Shown: positions 31,820 through 39,528 of the stretch, in pieces
Layout of the letters: each line of letters starts with the position of its first letter
Position numbering within the stretch: the first letter of the stretch is position 1
Assembly: GCA_017465665.1 (NCBI GenBank)
Contig: JAFTVU010000098.1
Span: 1-63,132, forward strand
DNA length: 63,132 nt
Direction: 5' to 3'
DNA from: Oscillospiraceae bacterium
Lineage (GTDB): Bacteria > Bacillota > Clostridia > Oscillospirales > Ruminococcaceae
Program-made: the position numbers and the translations under genes
The notes under the pieces: generated by a model
What the model was told of the DNA's origin: nothing
Database searches by the model: none
Seen by the model: only the letters and a program-made list of their open reading frames with translations

Positions 31820-32989
31820 TTATCTTGTTCCGAGGCGGTATCTGAAATCCTCATAACCGAACCGTGCGAGCAATCTGAACGTACCCTCGGCACTGAGCTG
31901 CCATATATCGGGCAGCGGCATACCGTTAAAGGTGTTGTTCTTACAGGTGGAATATATCGCCATATCTTCGAACAGCAGCCTGCTTCCCTCTTTAAGCTGT
32001 TCAGCAAAGCTGTAGTCACCTACGATATCTCCGGCAAGGCAGGTAGGACCGCCCAGACGATATGTGAACGCCTTTTCACCTGCTTCTCCCGAAGCATACA
32101 GCGGCGGACGATACGGCATTTCAATCACATCGGGCGTATGGCACGCTGCCGACATATCCAGTATCGCAATATCGGTATCGCCGTTTTTCAATGTATCAAG
32201 CACCTCGGTAAGCAGGTAGCCTGCATTCAGCGCTACAGCTTCGCCAGGCTCAAGGTATATCTGTAGTTCATAGGTATCACGCATACGGATGATACAGCGT
32301 TCAAGGCGCGGAATATCGTAATCCTTACGGGTGATATGATGTCCGCCGCCCATGTTGAGCCACTTCATCTGACCGAGATATGCGCCGAACTTCTCCTCCA
32401 CTGCTGCAAGCGTTATCTCCAGCGCATCGGAATCCTGCTCGCACAGCGTATGGAAATGCAGACCGTCAAGCAAGGATATAAGCTCCTCTGTCATCTGCTC
32501 ATTCCACTGCGCCAGAGTAGTTCCAAGCCTGCTGCCCTTTGCGCAGGGGTCGTATATCTCATGCCCGTCCTGCGTTGAGCACTCGGGGTTTATACGAAGT
32601 CCCACGGACTTTCCCGCAGCCTTTGCAGCAGCGCCGAACTTTCTGAGCTGTGACGGTGAATTGAACACGATGTGATCTGCGTATTCAAGCAGCTCTGTAA
32701 ACTCATCCTGACGGTATGCCGCACAGAACACGTGGCACTCCTTATCGGGCATTTTTTCTGCGCCGAGGCGTGCTTCAAACAGGCCGCTTGCTTCTGTTCC
32801 TGCAAGATACGGTGCAATTGACGGGTACAGATCGTAATTTGAAAATGCTTTCTGCGCAAGAAGTATCCTGCAGTCTGTCCTGTCCTGCACTGCTTTCAGT
32901 ATCCTGCCGTTTTCTATGAGTTTTGCCTCATCGATGATATAGCAGGGCGTCGGGAGTGCGGAGCCGAGTATCCTTTCCTGTGCTGTCAT
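31820..32989 (-). CDS. nspC: Carboxy(nor)spermidine decarboxylase
   Basis: This PLP enzyme of the alanine racemase-fold decarboxylases converts carboxyspermidine (or carboxynorspermidine) to spermidine (or norspermidine). The 389-residue protein has the PLP lysine in LAQKAFSNYD (about residue 48), the LHFHTLCEQ segment, the glycine-rich GGGHH phosphate loop and, near the C-terminus, GPTCLAGDI with the active-site Cys. Length and order match NspC. It is the last gene of the polyamine operon, one base after the dehydrogenase gene. With agmatine-derived putrescine as input, carboxyspermidine to spermidine is the probable reaction. Confidence 0.93.
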   Translation of the reverse strand: MTAQERILGSALPTPCYIIDEAKLIENGRILKAVQDRTDCRILLAQKAFSNYDLYPSIAPYLAGTEASGLFEARLGAEKMPDKECHVFCAAYRQDEFTELLEYADHIVFNSPSQLRKFGAAAKAAGKSVGLRINPECSTQDGHEIYDPCAKGSRLGTTLAQWNEQMTEELISLLDGLHFHTLCEQDSDALEITLAAVEEKFGAYLGQMKWLNMGGGHHITRKDYDIPRLERCIIRMRDTYELQIYLEPGEAVALNAGYLLTEVLDTLKNGDTDIAILDMSAACHTPDVIEMPYRPPLYASGEAGEKAFTYRLGGPTCLAGDIVGDYSFAEQLKEGSRLLFEDMAIYSTCKNNTFNGMPLPDIWQLSAEGTFRLLARFGYEDFRYRLGTR

Positions 32990-32990
32990 A

Positions 32991-34250
32991 TCAGTCTACC
33001 AGAACGGGTGTGTGGCTCTCACGGTGAGGAAGCCCGTACTTGTCAAGCGCCTCGATATAGGGATCGGGATCGAACTCCTCCACGGTATACACGCCTGCCT
33101 TGTTCCACTTGCCTGTCAGCAGCATGAGAGCGCCGCACATTGCAGGAACACCTGTGGTATAGGAGATAGCCTGAGATTCTACCTCTGCGTAGCACTCCTG
33201 ATGATCGCACACGTTGTAGATGTAATAGGTCTTATCCTTGCCGTCCTTTTTGCCTGTGAAGATACAGCCGATATTGGTCTTGCCCTTTGTGCGGGGACCG
33301 AGAGAAGCTGGATCGGGCAGCAGTGCTTTCAGGAACTGGATGGGTACTATCTCATGTCCCTCATAATTGATTGGTGTTGTGGAGAGCATACCTACATTCT
33401 CAAGGCACTTCATGTGGGTGAGATAGCTCTGTCCGAATGTCATGAAGAAACGGATGCGCTTTACATCGGGGATGTTTTTTGCAAGTGACTCTATCTCCTC
33501 ATGGTGGAGCAGGTACATATCCTTCATGCCGACTTCTTCAAAATCGTACTCGCGCTTGATGCTCATTGCAGGTATCTCCACCCACTTGCCGTTCTCCCAG
33601 TAGCTGCCCGGAGCGGATACCTCACGCAGGTTTATCTCGGGATTAAAGTTGGTTGCAAAGGGATAGCCGTGATCGCCGCCGTTGCAATCGAGGATATCGA
33701 TAGTTTCGATGGTATCGAACTCATGCTTGAGCGCATACGCACAATACGCCTGAGTTACACCCGGATCAAAGCCGCTGCCGAGCAGTGCTGTAAGACCTGC
33801 GTCCTCGAACTTTTTCTTATATGCCCACTGCCATGTGTAATCAAAGTACGCGGAGAAGCCCTCCTCCTTGCAGCGCTTGTCGTAAACTGAACGCCACTCG
33901 GGATCGTCGATGTTTTCAGGCTCGTAGTTGGCGGTATCCATGTAGTTCACGCCGCAGGCAAGACAGGCATCCATGATAGTGAGATCCTGATAAGGAAGCG
34001 CGATGTTCATTACCAGCTCGGGCTTGTAGGAATTGATGAGCGCGATGAGCTCATCAACGTTATCAGCGTCCACCTGTGCGGTAGTGATAACTGTGGATGT
34101 GATGGGACGGAGCTTTTCCGCCAGAGCATCACACTTGCTCTTTGTGCGGCTTGCGATACATATCTCGGTGAACACCTCGCTCACCTGGCAGCACTTTCTG
34201 ATAGCTACATTGGCTACGCCGCCGCAGCCTATAATTAATACTTTACTCAT
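32991..34250 (-). CDS. Carboxy(nor)spermidine dehydrogenase (saccharopine dehydrogenase family)
   Basis: The enzyme condenses L-aspartate semialdehyde with putrescine (or diaminopropane) and reduces the product with NADPH to carboxyspermidine. The 419-residue protein starts MSKVLIIGCGGVANVAIRK, a Rossmann glycine motif, and shows the Lys1-type features MNIALPYQDLTIMDACLACG and LGSGFDPGVTQAYCAYA. The frame continues five codons upstream, but GGAGG lies 7 nt before ATG 34250, which I take as the start. Adjacency to the nspC-type gene distinguishes it from saccharopine dehydrogenase. Confidence 0.93.
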   Translation of the reverse strand: MSKVLIIGCGGVANVAIRKCCQVSEVFTEICIASRTKSKCDALAEKLRPITSTVITTAQVDADNVDELIALINSYKPELVMNIALPYQDLTIMDACLACGVNYMDTANYEPENIDDPEWRSVYDKRCKEEGFSAYFDYTWQWAYKKKFEDAGLTALLGSGFDPGVTQAYCAYALKHEFDTIETIDILDCNGGDHGYPFATNFNPEINLREVSAPGSYWENGKWVEIPAMSIKREYDFEEVGMKDMYLLHHEEIESLAKNIPDVKRIRFFMTFGQSYLTHMKCLENVGMLSTTPINYEGHEIVPIQFLKALLPDPASLGPRTKGKTNIGCIFTGKKDGKDKTYYIYNVCDHQECYAEVESQAISYTTGVPAMCGALMLLTGKWNKAGVYTVEEFDPDPYIEALDKYGLPHRESHTPVLVD

Positions 34251-34303
34251 AATATCCTCCTGCATCGGGATTATCGCCCGACTTCTTCTTTGTTATTTCA
34301 AGT

Positions 34304-35164
34304 TTATCTCTTATTCTTCATTATTGCCAGTATCAGCTCCCTGAGCGTCTTGCAGGCGAACGCTGTACTTGCTCCGCTCGTATCAAGCATGGGTGCAAGC
34401 TCGTTGATATCTGCACCGACAACGTTATGCTCGCATACCTTTTCAATAGCATCCAGAAGCTGCATAAAGCTGATACCTCCAGCCTCGGGAGTGCCTGTGC
34501 CGCTGAAATACGCAGGATCAAGGCAGTCGAGATCAATGGTGAAGTATACAGGCTTGTCGCCTATCTCACAAAGAGCTTCAGCAAGTCCGTCAAGGGAAAA
34601 TCTATGCATATCTGTGTGCTCTTTTGCAAAGCGGAACTCCTCACGCTCACCGCTTCTGATACAGAACTGGTGGATGCGTCCGTCGCCGATGATATCATGG
34701 CAGCGGCGTATAACGCACGCATGACTAAGCTCTGCACCGAGGTAATCATCACGCAGGTCGCAATGTGCGTCAAAGTGGATGATGTGGATATCGGGATACT
34801 TCTTCTGCACCGCACGGAATGCGCCGAGAGTCACCAGATGCTCACCGCCGATAAGCAGCGGCAGCTTGCCGTCAGCAAGTATCTTCTGCGTGTGAGCTTC
34901 GATATCAGAAAGAGCGCTCTCTGCCGAGCCGAAGCACAGCTCCAGATCACCGCTGTCGAACACCTTGAAGTCTGTGATATCCTCATCCTGATAGGGTGAA
35001 TAGGTCTCTATTCCGAAGCTTTCATGACGTATCGCAGACGGACCTGATCTTGCGCCCGGGCGGTAGCTCGTGGTGCTGTCGAAAGGAGCGCCGAACAGCA
35101 CCAGCTCAGCCTCCTCATAGCTGCTGTCACAGCCGATAAAGGTCTCGACGTTTCTCTGCATCAC
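34304..35164 (-). CDS. speB: Agmatinase (agmatine ureohydrolase) SpeB
   Basis: SpeB hydrolyses agmatine to putrescine and urea. The 286-residue protein is an arginase-fold Mn enzyme with the ligand motifs GGEHLVTLG, HFDAHCDLRDDY and TIDLDCLDPAYF. Because speA lies in the same operon, agmatinase fits better than arginase or formimidoglutamase. Its start overlaps the speE end by 4 bp. Confidence 0.94.
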   Translation of the reverse strand: MMQRNVETFIGCDSSYEEAELVLFGAPFDSTTSYRPGARSGPSAIRHESFGIETYSPYQDEDITDFKVFDSGDLELCFGSAESALSDIEAHTQKILADGKLPLLIGGEHLVTLGAFRAVQKKYPDIHIIHFDAHCDLRDDYLGAELSHACVIRRCHDIIGDGRIHQFCIRSGEREEFRFAKEHTDMHRFSLDGLAEALCEIGDKPVYFTIDLDCLDPAYFSGTGTPEAGGISFMQLLDAIEKVCEHNVVGADINELAPMLDTSGASTAFACKTLRELILAIMKNKR

Positions 35165-36012
35165 TCCACCTCCCTGAGCATCTCTTCAAGGAATGCAGGA
35201 AGATAGAATGCGCCTGCGTGAAGCTGCGTGGTGTAATACTTCGTGCGCATATTATGCTTCTTCCAGGCTTCTGCATCAAGATCGTTTATGGGGTGATACT
35301 TCTTGCTTGCGAAGCCGAACAGCCAGTAGCCAGCAGCGTAAGTAGGGATGTGTGCCTGATACACCTTGCTTATGGGGAAAGTCTGCACTATGCGCTTGTG
35401 ACTGCGCTGCATAGCCTCAGCATCCTGCTTGTAAAAGGGGCTTCCCTGCTGATTTACCATGATACCGTCCTCACGCAATGCGTTGAAGCAGTTTCCGTAG
35501 AACTCAAGGGTGAAAAGTCCCTCGGACGGGCCAAAAGGATCGGTGCTGTCTACGATGATGAGATCGTACTTATTCTCGCAGCGGCGGATGAACTTCAGCG
35601 CATTCTCAAAGTAGATGTGAACACGGCAGTCATCCATTCGGCAGGCGTTTCCGGGAAGATATGCACGGCATGCCTCCACGACCTGAGGATCCATCTCAAC
35701 AAGGTCGATGTGCTCTACCCTGTCATAGCGTGTAAGCTCACGAACTACGCCGCCATCGCCTGCGCCTATAACAAGGATATCCTTGATACCCTTATGCACC
35801 GCCATCGGCACGTGTGTTATCATCTCGTCATAGATGAACTCGTCACGCTCTGTCAGCATTACATTGCCGTCAAGTGCGAGAACTCGTCCGAACTCGGGGG
35901 TCTCAAATATATCTATGCGCTGATAATCGCTCTGGTGGGAATACAGATGCTTATTAACGCGGATACTATGCTTCACGTCAGGGGTGTGAAGCTCACTGAA
36001 CCATAATTCCAA
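35161..36012 (-). CDS. speE: Spermidine synthase-like aminopropyltransferase SpeE
   Basis: SpeE moves an aminopropyl group from decarboxylated SAM to putrescine. The 283-residue protein has the family motifs LTERDEFIYDEMITHVPM, the nucleotide loop VIGAGDGGVVREL and the catalytic DSTDPFGPSEGLF, with the residues expected for an active enzyme. It needs decarboxylated SAM from SpeD, yet no speD is in the operon or window. Two routes to spermidine therefore meet here: SpeE, and the dehydrogenase/decarboxylase pair. It lies 15 bp downstream of speA. Confidence 0.93.
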   Translation of the reverse strand: MELWFSELHTPDVKHSIRVNKHLYSHQSDYQRIDIFETPEFGRVLALDGNVMLTERDEFIYDEMITHVPMAVHKGIKDILVIGAGDGGVVRELTRYDRVEHIDLVEMDPQVVEACRAYLPGNACRMDDCRVHIYFENALKFIRRCENKYDLIIVDSTDPFGPSEGLFTLEFYGNCFNALREDGIMVNQQGSPFYKQDAEAMQRSHKRIVQTFPISKVYQAHIPTYAAGYWLFGFASKKYHPINDLDAEAWKKHNMRTKYYTTQLHAGAFYLPAFLEEMLREVE

Positions 36013-36027
36013 TCTATGTACCTCCTG

Positions 36028-37491
36028 TTATTTCAATACGTTGAGATAACGTATCTCCTCGTCCTCGGGGCCTGTCATCGAACAGCCCTTGGAGCGTGCG
36101 TATTCAATATAATCTATTATCTGTGCGGTTATGCGCTCTCCCGGAGCAAGTATCGGTATTCCCGGAGGATAGCACATTACGAACTCGCTGCACACACGAC
36201 CTACGCTCTCACGAAGCGGCAGGCTCTCCTTTTCAGCATAGAACGCCTCCTGCGGGCTGCTCACCACAACAGGGTCTATATACTCCTGATTGAGCAGACC
36301 CGTACCATCAGTGGAGTAACGGCGGCGTATCTCGGCAAGTGCGGAAACAAGGCGCTCAAGCTCCTGCGGACGATCGCCCATAGAGAGGTATGCAAGGATA
36401 TTTCCAATATCACCGAACTCTATCTGGATATCGTACTCATCACGCAGGATATCGTATACCTCGATGCCTGCAAGACCGATATCAAGCGTGTGAACAGACA
36501 GCTTTGTGGTATCAAAATCAAATACCGAGTTGCCATTGACAAGCTCCTTGCCAAAGGCGTAATAGCCGCCTATCTCGTTTATCTCATCCCTCGCGTAATC
36601 CGCCATATCCGCCACCTGACGGAACACCTTGCGTCCACGCAGTGCCAGATTGCGGCGGCTGATATCCAGACTTGACATCAAAAGATAGCTTGCAGAGGTG
36701 GTCTGGGTGAGGTTTATTATCTGGCGGACATAGCCTGCGTGTACATTCGGACCTGTAAGCAGCAGGCTCGACTGAGTAAGGCTTCCGCCGCTCTTATGCA
36801 TGGAGACAGCCGCCATATCAGCGCCAGCTGCCATTGCGGAAACAGGAAGTCCGCTGCCGAAATACAGGTGAGTTCCGTGGGCTTCATCCGCAAGGCAGAG
36901 CATTCCTGCATCATGCGCCATCTTTACGATAGCACGAAGATCGGAGCAGATTCCGTAATATGTAGGGTTATTTACCAGAACAGCAACCGCATTCGGATGC
37001 TCCTTTATTGCCTTTGCTACCTGCTCTCTCTGCATACCGAGTGAGATTCCGAGGCGCTGATCAACCTCGGGATTCACATACACAGGAACGGCACCGCAAA
37101 GCACCAGTGCATTGATGACGCTTCTGTGCACGTTTCTGGGGAGTATTATCTCATCGCCGCGCTTGCAGGCAGAAAGCACCATGCTCTGCACGGAACTTGT
37201 GGTTCCGCCCACCATCAGGAATGCGTGCGCTGCACCGAAAGCGTCAGCGGCGAGCTCCTCAGCCTGCTGTATGACGGATATCGGGTGGCAGAGATTATCC
37301 AGCGGCTTCATGCTGTTTACGTCCACGCCTACGCACTGCTGACCGAGGAACTCGGTAAGCTCAGGGTTGCCGCGTCCGCGCTTGTGTCCGGGAACGTCAA
37401 AGGGTACTACGCGCATCTGACGGAACTGTTCAAGAGCCTCGTGTATCGGCGCTCTTGTCTGATCAAGATGTCTGCTTGAAGAAATACTCAT
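36028..37491 (-). CDS. speA: Arginine decarboxylase SpeA (Orn/Lys/Arg decarboxylase, AAT fold)
   Basis: This PLP enzyme belongs to the short, fold-I Orn/Lys/Arg decarboxylase group (487 residues). Key segments are VPGHKRGRGNPEL, GGTTSSVQSMVLSA, LADEAHGTHLYF and SMHKSGGSLTQSSLLL with the PLP lysine. Arginine is the likely substrate because agmatinase follows in the operon; lysine decarboxylase is the alternative. An open frame runs upstream to 37689, but it passes through a terminator hairpin; GGAGAG precedes ATG 37491, which gives the family's normal N-terminus. It is the first gene behind the structured leader. Confidence 0.93.
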   Translation of the reverse strand: MSISSSRHLDQTRAPIHEALEQFRQMRVVPFDVPGHKRGRGNPELTEFLGQQCVGVDVNSMKPLDNLCHPISVIQQAEELAADAFGAAHAFLMVGGTTSSVQSMVLSACKRGDEIILPRNVHRSVINALVLCGAVPVYVNPEVDQRLGISLGMQREQVAKAIKEHPNAVAVLVNNPTYYGICSDLRAIVKMAHDAGMLCLADEAHGTHLYFGSGLPVSAMAAGADMAAVSMHKSGGSLTQSSLLLTGPNVHAGYVRQIINLTQTTSASYLLMSSLDISRRNLALRGRKVFRQVADMADYARDEINEIGGYYAFGKELVNGNSVFDFDTTKLSVHTLDIGLAGIEVYDILRDEYDIQIEFGDIGNILAYLSMGDRPQELERLVSALAEIRRRYSTDGTGLLNQEYIDPVVVSSPQEAFYAEKESLPLRESVGRVCSEFVMCYPPGIPILAPGERITAQIIDYIEYARSKGCSMTGPEDEEIRYLNVLK

Positions 37492-37882
37492 ATCCTCTCT
37501 CCTTGCTGTGAGAAATAAAAAAGCTGTACCATGCGCAAAAATGCATAGTACAGCTTGTGACATTACTTTACCGTAATAAATTACAGAATATACAAACAGA
37601 TAAACTGCAACAGTAACATTATTCGGATTTTCAGAGTCTATATAGCAATCACTTTTACTACTCTTATTGACCGTTTCACAAGTATGCACCGAGCTTAATG
37701 CTCTTCTGCATTTTTCGGTTATGAAGTAACCAACTTATAAAATTTGAGCTTTTAACTCAATCAATAATGCGGCTTTCACCGCAGATCGGCAGTGGACCCG
37801 GCTGTCCGTATGGCCTCAACTCCGAAAGGAGTGGTCCTTATGGTTGCTGGAAAGACTCCAATATCCTTCCAAATACATTACG
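37492..37882 (-). ncRNA. Structured 5' leader of the polyamine operon (candidate riboswitch/attenuator)
   Basis: About 390 nt lie between the predicted transcription start (about 37882) and speA. In transcript order the minus strand shows these hairpins: GGAAGG/CUUUCC (37849-37870); a helix GGACC/GGUCC (37833-37837 with 37794-37798) enclosing ACUCC-UUUC-GGAGU (37819-37832); UGCGGU-GAAA-GCCGCA, a GNRA-capped helix (37768-37783); a 7-bp hairpin at 37744-37760; a 7-bp hairpin at 37715-37733; and a two-part hairpin at 37684-37711. A 13-bp terminator at 37513-37555 follows. It matches none of the classes that I could compare by eye (SAM, lysine, cobalamin, guanidine, c-di-GMP, M-box, T-box). Ligand unknown; arginine, agmatine or a polyamine would fit the genes. 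Confidence 0.65.
37513..37555 (-). terminator. Intrinsic terminator in the speA leader
   Basis: On the minus strand AGCTGTACTATGC and GCATGGTACAGCT form a 13-bp stem, followed by TTTTTTATTT. It ends about 21 nt before the speA start, so it must be bypassed for operon expression. A GUGCAU segment in the preceding hairpin could pair with the AUGCAU of the 5' arm, offering an alternative antiterminator. Confidence 0.85.
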
Positions 37883-37888
37883 ATTTGG

Positions 37889-37917
37889 ATTATACTATAT
37901 TTTTCGGCTTTTGTCAA
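37889..37917 (-). promoter_or_regulatory. Consensus sigma-A promoter of the polyamine operon
   Basis: Perfect TTGACA (37912-37917), 17 bp, perfect TATAAT (37889-37894) on the minus strand. Confidence 0.88.
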
Positions 37918-37920
37918 GTA

Positions 37921-37950
37921 GTATTTTAATATTTTATTGCATTAAAATAC
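37921..37950. promoter_or_regulatory. Perfect 10-bp palindrome upstream of the speA promoter
   Basis: GTATTTTAAT (37921-37930) and ATTAAAATAC (37941-37950) form a perfect inverted repeat around a 10-bp centre. It lies 3 bp beyond the -35 box, between the divergent polyamine and gerA operons, where a transcription factor could act. It lacks a uridine tract, so a terminator is unlikely. Confidence 0.5.
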
Positions 37951-38037
37951 ACTGATACTCGGGTGAGCATTTATACAGTGCATAATAGCGGTTGTTTCGG
38001 GAGATATTAACAGAAACACCCCGAAAGGAGCGCTGAT

Positions 38038-39528
38038 ATGCCAAGCGAAAATGTACACACAAATCTACCCTCGGATACTCCGATAGATACAGATCTGGAC
38101 AAGAATCTGCAAAACATAAAGCTGATGACGGGAAATTCATCCGATGTGGTAATAAAGCCTGCACTGGTCTGCGGCAACAGGATAGCTGTAGTGACCACAG
38201 AAGGCATGACAGGCGTTTCTACACTTGCGGCATTAGTATATGAAAAGCTGAACGACCTCGACGGCAGAGGCTCACTGCCGCCAAGCGAGCTGGTGGAGAA
38301 CTTCTTTGATTCCTATCTCATTGCGGCGCAACAGCTTGATGTAAAGGATCTGGGCGACCTGTGCTGGAAGCTGGAAAGCGGCTTTGCCATTCTGCTTACG
38401 GACGGCAGCTCACGCGCCATTGCGATCGGCGTGCAGGGATTTCAGTTCCGAAGCGTTGGCGAGCCCTCCACGGAAAACGATGTACGCGGCTCACGGGAGG
38501 GCTTTGTGGAGGTCATCCGCTTTAATATGGGGCTTGTACGCAGGCGCATAAAATCGCCTACGCTGGTGTTTGAAATGTCGCAGATAGGAGAGCGCAGCAA
38601 AACAGATGTCTGCCTGTGCTATTTAAGCGATAAGGTATCGCCGAAGCTGCTGAATAACATTAAGAAGCGGCTGCAGAGCGTAAAGCTCAACACCGTTCTG
38701 GAGGGCGGATATATCCAGCCCTATCTTGAGGGCAAGGGCGGCTGGTTCTTTTCTGAATGCGGCACCTGTGAACGTCCCGACAGCTTTGCAGCAAAGCTTT
38801 ATGAGGGCAGAGTGGGAATACTTGTGGACGGAACGCCTTTCGCGCTGGTAGTGCCGTACCTTTTCATCGAGAGCTTTCAGACGATGGATGACTACACCCA
38901 GAAGCCATATTACGCCACATTCATCCGATTTGTAAGACTTGCCGCGTATCTCATAACCGTTTTTCTGCCAGGAGCTTATGTAGCTATCGCTTCATTCAGC
39001 CCTGAGATGCTGCCATCGGCGCTCATCCTTAACCTTGCTGCGGCAGAACAGACCGCGCCATTCTCGTTGATGGTGGAATGTCTGCTCATCCATTTCATGT
39101 ACGAGATACTGCGTGAAGCGGGTCTGCGTCTGCCGCGCCCTATCGGTCATGCCATCGGCGTTGTCGGCGGACTTGTCATCGGTGATATAACCGTTAATGC
39201 AGGGCTTGTGGGTGCGCCGATGGTGCTGGTGGTTGCGCTTTCGGGTCTTTGCAGCTTTGTTGTTCCTGCCATGTACGAAAAGACCGTGGTACTGAGGTTT
39301 CTGTATATCATAGCAGGCGGCATCTTCGGACTTTTCGGACTGTTTCTTGCGGCGGCTGCGGTGATAGTGAAGATGTGCAGTCTGAACACCTACGGCGTGC
39401 CGTATATGTCGCCGCTGTCACCCTTTACTCCACGCGCAAGCCGCGATATGCTTATCAGAACAGGCTGGAAGCAGCTTGCAAAGGGTGATGTTTCACTTGA
39501 GAGCCTGAACGGCTCTGAGGAGGTGTGA
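38038..39528 (+). CDS. GerAA-type spore germination receptor subunit A
   Basis: The A subunit of nutrient germinant receptors sits in the spore inner membrane. The 496-residue protein has a hydrophilic N-terminal domain of about 250 residues, with the ERPDSFAAKLYEGRVGILVDGTP region typical of GerA. About five to six membrane spans follow (residues 285-460), including the PRPIGHAIGVVGGLVIGD motif. GAAAGGAG lies 7 nt before ATG. It is the first of three ger genes. A CATAATA box near 37980 resembles a sigma-G -10 element, but I see no convincing -35. Confidence 0.93.
   Translation: MPSENVHTNLPSDTPIDTDLDKNLQNIKLMTGNSSDVVIKPALVCGNRIAVVTTEGMTGVSTLAALVYEKLNDLDGRGSLPPSELVENFFDSYLIAAQQLDVKDLGDLCWKLESGFAILLTDGSSRAIAIGVQGFQFRSVGEPSTENDVRGSREGFVEVIRFNMGLVRRRIKSPTLVFEMSQIGERSKTDVCLCYLSDKVSPKLLNNIKKRLQSVKLNTVLEGGYIQPYLEGKGGWFFSECGTCERPDSFAAKLYEGRVGILVDGTPFALVVPYLFIESFQTMDDYTQKPYYATFIRFVRLAAYLITVFLPGAYVAIASFSPEMLPSALILNLAAAEQTAPFSLMVECLLIHFMYEILREAGLRLPRPIGHAIGVVGGLVIGDITVNAGLVGAPMVLVVALSGLCSFVVPAMYEKTVVLRFLYIIAGGIFGLFGLFLAAAAVIVKMCSLNTYGVPYMSPLSPFTPRASRDMLIRTGWKQLAKGDVSLESLNGSEEV

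Follow-up and report, generated by a model that had tools for sequence, protein, structure and literature searches.

Polyamines occur in abundance and bind RNA without specificity, and convincing polyamine riboswitches have therefore been difficult to identify. The described spermidine riboswitch consists of SAM-I variants with 13 examples, in which spermidine triggers premature termination, and the passages of this paper that concern the class state that further classes surely await discovery (PMC10853860). In the accessible text of a paper on the S. agalactiae PotABCD system, a single 'leader' passage deals with attenuator structures in the pot operons of other species.

A further RNA has been described in S. 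pneumoniae. SN20/srn235/F59 sits between SP0915 (minus strand) and SP0916 (plus strand) (PMC2887815, PMC12323649), and its length is given as 318 nt in PMC2887815, as 327 nt by coordinates in PMC12323649 and as 82 nt in PMC3395615. The passages of the pneumococcal papers that mention SN20/srn235/F59/Spd_sr49 treat it as an sRNA; one proposes an FMN-like switch, and a review table carries it with a lung entry. Neither 'polyamine' nor 'spermidine' occurs in the main text of PMC3395615, PMC12323649 or PMC4387999, and 'spermidine' is absent from that of PMC2887815. A paper on the transcriptional landscape of S. pneumoniae TIGR4 has none of polyamine, spermidine, SP_0916, F59 or cad in its main text. 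F59 (also SN20, srn235 or Spd_sr49) and, judging by name, the SpF59 of Rfam appear to be the same RNA. In this study, we focused on a leader in a stretch of 63,132 nucleotides from an Oscillospiraceae bacterium (contig JAFTVU010000098.1), the whole of which is called the window below.

A folded leader before a polyamine operon

A sequence-only reading of the window had claimed a perfect sigma-A promoter, a folded leader of about 390 nt and a 13-bp terminator before speA. All three were recovered, the terminator hairpin with 14 pairs. The leader occupies the approximately 390 nt between the promoter and a speA-led operon of five genes on the minus strand, in the order speA, speE, agmatinase, carboxyspermidine dehydrogenase-like gene, nspC:

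37889..37917, minus strand: sigma-A-type promoter, TTGACA (starts at 37917), 17-nt spacer, TATAAT (ends at 37889); 12 of 12 consensus positions
37521..37556, minus strand: intrinsic terminator, 14-pair hairpin followed by TTTTATTTCT (U tract)
36028..37491, minus strand: speA-type Orn/Lys/Arg decarboxylase, first gene of the operon; PF01276 (OKR_DC_1), 227.9 bits; substrate putative
35161..36012, minus strand: speE, spermidine synthase; TIGR00417, 308.8 bits (cutoff 249.55)
34304..35164, minus strand: agmatinase; TIGR01230, 288.4 bits (cutoff 174.3)
32991..34265, minus strand: carboxy(nor)spermidine dehydrogenase/synthase-like protein; NF043000, 403.1 bits (below the cutoff of 800); also matches saccharopine dehydrogenase domains
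31820..32989, minus strand: nspC, carboxy(nor)spermidine decarboxylase; TIGR01047, 419.4 bits (cutoff 409.05)

Promoter-like sites with at least 9 of 12 consensus positions were as frequent between 36500 and 39000 as in shuffled sequence (3 versus 3.1), so it is the perfect match alone that is notable and not the count. Terminator-like sites in the same region numbered 6 versus 2.0 in shuffles. From the -10 box, transcription is expected to start near 37882, and the T tract of the terminator ends 21 nt 5' of the speA ATG (37491-37489). The part of the leader at 37639-37882 folds with -73.7 kcal/mol (z -3.66), and only 1 of 200 dinucleotide shuffles folds equally well. The divergent neighbor at 38038-39528, read from its ORF by eye, looks like a spore-germination protein.

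A close speA is present in 38 of the 41 genomes of the window's genus, and the RNA in 3. The speA of these three genomes is 84-100% identical to that of the window, versus 63-69% in the other 35. The RNA thus seems to accompany this form of the operon. The estimated contamination of the window's genome is 8.79%, so the contig might be foreign to the bin; the conclusions on the RNA are unaffected by this.

Architecture and distribution of the RNA

In the whole window, Rfam release 15 gave one match at gathering score, RF02440 (SpF59_sRNA, ldcC RNA), at 37786-37837 on the minus strand. It scored 70.2 bits versus a gathering score of 37.2 and spanned the model end to end (positions 1-54). The entry has the type 'Gene; sRNA' and names no function. 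Other curated riboswitch and leader families (T-box, lysine and others) were absent from the window at gathering score, and a permissive scan of 37300-38100 added just three matches, all far below their gathering scores. Membership in the SAM-I variants was considered and rejected: no SAM family reached its gathering score in the window, nor did one appear in the permissive scan. Alignments of homologues revealed a conserved, modular RNA of about 230 nt, much longer than the 54 nt of RF02440, with the following parts:

37631..37861, minus strand: whole RNA, closed by P1 and P2
37861-37853 / 37639-37631, minus strand: P1, closing helix, UUGGAGUCU / AGACUCUGA; from pairing within versus between loci
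37848-37844 / 37648-37644, minus strand: P2, AGCAA / UUGCU
37786..37837, minus strand: domain A, equal to RF02440; covariance model match and covariation; P3 (GGACC/GGUCC), P3a (ACUCC/GGAGU), P4 (GGC/GCC) with the conserved loop CAUACGGACA, then a conserved GCCGA
37768..37783, minus strand: P5 hairpin, GAAA loop in the window
37664..37767, minus strand: domain B (P6, P7, P8 and P8a); alignments, RNAalifold and covariation
37767-37760 / 37671-37664, minus strand: P6, UUAUUGAU / GUCAAUAA, enclosing P7 and P8
37758-37755 / 37749-37746, minus strand: P7, GAGU/GCUC, inside P6
37742-37734 / 37682-37674, minus strand: P8, UUUUAUAAG / CUUGUGAAA, enclosing P8a and a variable hairpin
37731-37728 / 37720-37717, minus strand: P8a, GGUU/AACC, inside P8
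37651..37663, minus strand: strongly conserved element GAGUAGUAAAAGU, unpaired in the model, preceding the 3' strands of P2 and P1

The sequence-only reading had placed the RNA in no known class. This holds for domain B, which matched no Rfam family at gathering score in the window, and fails for domain A. A confident Rfam hit to a known class had been named there as an argument against a new riboswitch; RF02440 describes an sRNA without defining a functional class, so it provides that argument by the letter only. The GNRA-capped helix of the same reading is P5, whose loop and sequence vary among homologues.

The sequence-only reading had proposed a search for covariation among homologues, and this was found. 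Unguided RNAalifold predicted P3, P3a, P4, P6, P7 and P8. The structure evaluated in 107 sequences had 42 pairs, comprising RNAalifold's 31 less one and 12 that were chosen by hand from column tables (P5, P8a and two in P3a), so the measure leans towards pairing; 96.0% of its cells were paired, versus 89.3% in shuffles. Two-sided changes occurred at 22 pairs (331 cells), versus 10.7 in shuffles, and none of the 500 shuffles, which keep the kinship of these related loci, reached any of five measures. Pairing fell to 26-50% when the partners were slid by 1-3 columns. P8 showed changes on one side only and no two-sided ones. Pairs of P3 that are invariant among the 107 sequences vary in remoter loci by eye, with A-U replaced by G-C in L251 and L255 and AGAC/GUCU in L206. 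For P1/P2, the longest helix averaged 8.75 bp within loci, 7.43 bp with partners swapped between loci (none of 60 permutations above 7.66 bp) and 6.10 bp when shuffled, in the 122 of 161 loci with the GAGTAGTAAAAG pattern. Landmarks were parsed in 161 of 179 unique loci; the 18 failures include L048, L049, L070, L138, L146 and L159. The 107 sequences (alignment A1) were drawn from 133 listed loci, 26 being removed by hand for length, and the 5' end is misplaced in a few rows (L058, L129, L139). Alignment A2 holds 43 of 85 listed loci and L211.

Of 197 genomes in the window's family, 49 had RF02440, as did 18 of 398 genomes across the phylum and one of 14 named control genomes, that of Lactococcus lactis. 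A pattern scan of named genomes matched at least 119 stretches, and the matches listed include Oscillospiraceae, Lachnospiraceae, Paenibacillus, Bacillus/Neobacillus, Lactococcus, Acidaminococcus, Phascolarctobacterium and Holdemania, as well as one Spirochaetes MAG that is possibly misbinned. R1, a 166-position model trained partly on loci from the same phylum genomes (A1 includes such loci), matched 20 of the 398 phylum genomes, two of them (G466 and G219) beyond RF02440. R2, a model of domain B plus tail, matched 53 of the 197 family genomes, 46 in common with RF02440 and 7 by R2 alone; RF02440 alone was found in three (G035, G075, G101). Across the phylum, R2 matched 23 of 378 genomes, including 17 of the 18 with RF02440; the eighteenth, G588, was matched by R1 and may lie outside the 378-genome sample. 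Four weak new matches (43-54 bits) in this search were all 5' of speD-speA.

These models also uncovered the modularity of the RNA. The R1 matches L211, L209 and L212 are without a recognisable domain A. The seven family loci found by R2 alone all lie 5' of speA or speD; by eye, domain A is very divergent in L251, L252 and L255, none was recognisable in L249 and L254, and L250 and L253 were ambiguous. Domain A is thus absent from some loci and divergent in others, most loci retain domain B, and RF02440 covers a part that not every locus has. An Rfam scan of eleven further loci of the R1/R2 type gave nothing at gathering score but a tRNA. The switch-carrying part of the RNA has no Rfam match. 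Since most loci were found via domain A, the sample of loci is not independent of it. Two loci before speD, L274 and L277, are without domain A and most of domain B and keep P2, the switch strand, GAGUAGUAAAAGU and a matching terminator; these minimal versions may define the true core.

A side branch was also observed. Divergent copies at L048:2001-3426, L049:2001-3100 and L187:1540-2615 (minus strand), with R1 scores of 28.6-42.5 bits, precede a lipoprotein-like ORF instead of a polyamine gene. The ORFs of L048 and L049 contain a Peptidase_C39-like domain, and that of L187 is alike by eye. It is possible that these three are a variant with another regulon. Relatives of the C39-like lipoprotein were found in 3 of 299 genomes, one of them weak; the RNA-core pattern had no match in these three loci, nor R1 in the two good ones, so the link between RNA and lipoprotein rests on the three original loci.

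Downstream genes and a probable terminator switch

The genes behind the RNA were surveyed with seven reference proteins (five from the window, one SpeD and one PotA), on the motif's strand and with a predicted start no more than 900 nt away, intervening unrecognised ORFs being allowed. Nine of the 179 unique loci were too short for evaluation. In 168 of the remaining 170, the first gene to be recognised on the same strand was a polyamine gene: speD in 63, speA in 49, potA in 32 and carboxyspermidine dehydrogenase in 24; 2 loci showed none of these four. It lies 565-627 nt downstream in L030, L042, L126 and L135. Minimum identities to the references were 74% (speD), 68% (speA), 50% (potA) and 64% (carboxyspermidine dehydrogenase). 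Families were assigned by Pfam/NCBIfam to representatives alone, with TIGR03331 (405.5 bits) for SpeD and NF043075 and TIGR01187, above cutoff, for PotA. The 15 loci added by R1/R2 (L206, L209, L211, L212, L249-L255, L274-L277) are all 5' of speA or speD. SpeD and the carboxyspermidine enzyme belong to different routes to spermidine, and PotA to polyamine import. Since two spermidine routes and import share the RNA, spermidine is the simplest common signal; with speD, potA and carboxyspermidine dehydrogenase in the lead, arginine would be a less likely ligand than spermidine or another polyamine.

Two elements of the window form the putative switch:

37676..37688, minus strand: switch strand UGCAUACUUGUGA, whose CUUGUGA pairs in P8 or with the terminator 5' arm
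37542..37560, minus strand: antiterminator partner, UCACAAG (37560-37554) and UAUGCA (37547-37542), overlapping the terminator 5' arm; duplex -17.3 kcal/mol

The sequence-only reading had proposed UGCAU (37688-37684) as an antiterminator. This segment can pair with the terminator arm and is the outer half of the helix: in the window, UGCAUA-CUUGUGA pairs with UCACAAG, 6 nt, and UAUGCA, and the conserved part is CUUGUGA/UCACAAG. By a strict scan, 116 of 155 leaders have a terminator separating the motif from the gene, versus 3, 3 and 1 in three dinucleotide shuffles; a lenient scan found a hairpin in 146 of 158 and none in 12. In these 146 loci, the duplex between the switch strand and the terminator arm of the same locus (22 nt) averaged -12.44 kcal/mol, versus -10.66 (sd 0.19) with arms swapped between loci, -6.74 with shuffled arms and -5.60 with linker windows, and none of 200 permutations was as low. 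The longest contiguous helix did not separate own from swapped arms (6.84 versus 6.78) because ACUUGUG is nearly invariant.

These data bear on the older view of the RNA as a trans-acting sRNA, taken by RF02440 and the pneumococcal papers, in which the terminator would end the sRNA and speA would be transcribed by read-through. The Rfam type and the listing of a discrete RNA in the S. pneumoniae material available to us agree with it. However, a free sRNA explains neither the same-strand polyamine gene that is the first recognised in nearly every locus nor a terminator arm that tracks the RNA within loci, and we regard this view as very improbable.

A leader peptide translated over the switch strand (GTG AAA CGG TCA ATA AGA GTA GTA AAA ..., with Arg and Lys codons) could also act by translational attenuation. 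The GTG is present in 130 of 161 loci, 148 of 159 have TCAATA in frame with it, and 26 loci have a 14-codon ORF. However, GTA replaces GTG in the other 31 loci, the 3' GACTC is spread over the three frames (57/46/42 in 145 loci) and ORF lengths scatter. With a Shine-Dalgarno-like stretch in one locus and no ribosome-binding site in 160 of 161, and with the 3' frame not kept, translational attenuation is disfavored and scarcely credible.

We consider it close to certain from these comparisons that the RNA acts in cis as a transcription attenuator of polyamine genes. The terminator and the antiterminator share a strand with P8, which gives the mutually exclusive structures of an expression platform; on the computed energies, it may work in either direction. 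Because the 3' strand of P8 and the terminator 5' arm are complementary, the RNA can adopt either of two states. If P8 is kept, the terminator would be free to form and the genes would be off; if the 3' strand of P8 serves as antiterminator, they would be on. By nearest-neighbor energies before completion of the terminator, the P8 state is favored by a median of +5.8 kcal/mol. In the 137 of 146 loci that were compared, P8 was at least as stable in 126 and the antiterminator was favored in 11. The window's values are +6.5 kcal/mol for P8 over the antiterminator state, and -123.5 versus -103.2 at full length. A simple switch that is turned off by its ligand would be antiterminated by default; the switch may therefore run in either direction, or pseudoknots, kinetics or a protein may contribute.

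A few leaders may depart from this platform. In the speA leader L083:4377-4536, the P8 and P6 3' strands have been lost and a CGCAAG-type terminator is retained; it could be a copy in decay or a switch that has been rewired. The potA leaders L146 (Lactococcus sp.), L159 and L138, with R1 scores of 57-85 bits, had no ACUUGUG strand that could be found and may use another expression platform.

Riboswitch reading and comparison with known systems

The attenuator probably works as a polyamine riboswitch that binds the polyamine directly, a reading that we hold with moderate confidence. As expected of a riboswitch, the RNA is structured and conserved, shows covariation and lies in the leader of an mRNA. 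The layout, the covariation and the link to polyamine genes thus agree with the riboswitch proposed by the sequence-only reading; its novelty is reduced by the 54-nt part already in Rfam. The pathway product, most likely spermidine, would stabilise the P8 fold, so that synthesis and uptake stop. It would be unusual for a small-molecule pocket that domain A is unrecognisable in several loci and that L274 and L277 do without most of domain B.

The dispensable domain A would suit a protein site, as would the long conserved unpaired stretches GAGUAGUAAAAGU, AUACGGACA and GCCGA, and the computed energies give no ligand-free antiterminated state. An RNA-binding regulator that senses polyamines, or is limited by them, might pick between terminator and antiterminator. 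However, when the ORFs of 49 family loci were inspected by eye, no extra gene recurred in the interval from the RNA to the first polyamine gene, and riboswitches typically have such a size, structure and linkage to both biosynthesis and transport genes. We regard a leader read by a protein as the main alternative, possible and rather unlikely.

On the riboswitch reading, the motif could represent a second natural polyamine riboswitch class, spread over Bacillota and unrelated in structure to the SAM-I-derived one. It would be modular, with a detachable domain A, a more widely kept domain B with the switch strand, and reuse of domain A before the secreted C39-like lipoprotein with altered 3' parts (L048, L049, L187). 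The chances of this fuller proposal seem evenly balanced to us. With well over 100 natural examples before four kinds of lead gene, a covarying structure model and a defined switch strand, the motif makes the question of a polyamine riboswitch directly testable. If the reading is true, it provides a mechanism by which gut Oscillospiraceae and Lachnospiraceae, and relatives of Paenibacillus and Bacillus, control the synthesis and import of polyamines.

In the accessible part of the open-licence PMC literature, we found no treatment of this RNA as a polyamine regulator. RF02440, with its 54 positions, is without domain B, P1/P2, the terminator and the antiterminator of the window's RNA. The pneumococcal F59 was likened to the window's RNA by name; SP0916 is presumably the pneumococcal speA/cad gene. 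The 318/327-nt pneumococcal transcript is what a terminated leader would look like, and the 'sRNA' would become, if the reading is true, the leader of a decarboxylase operon. The SAM-I-variant spermidine riboswitch, as far as the available text of its description goes, and the window's RNA are alike as leaders of polyamine genes; the window's RNA differs in having another fold and many more loci (PMC10853860).
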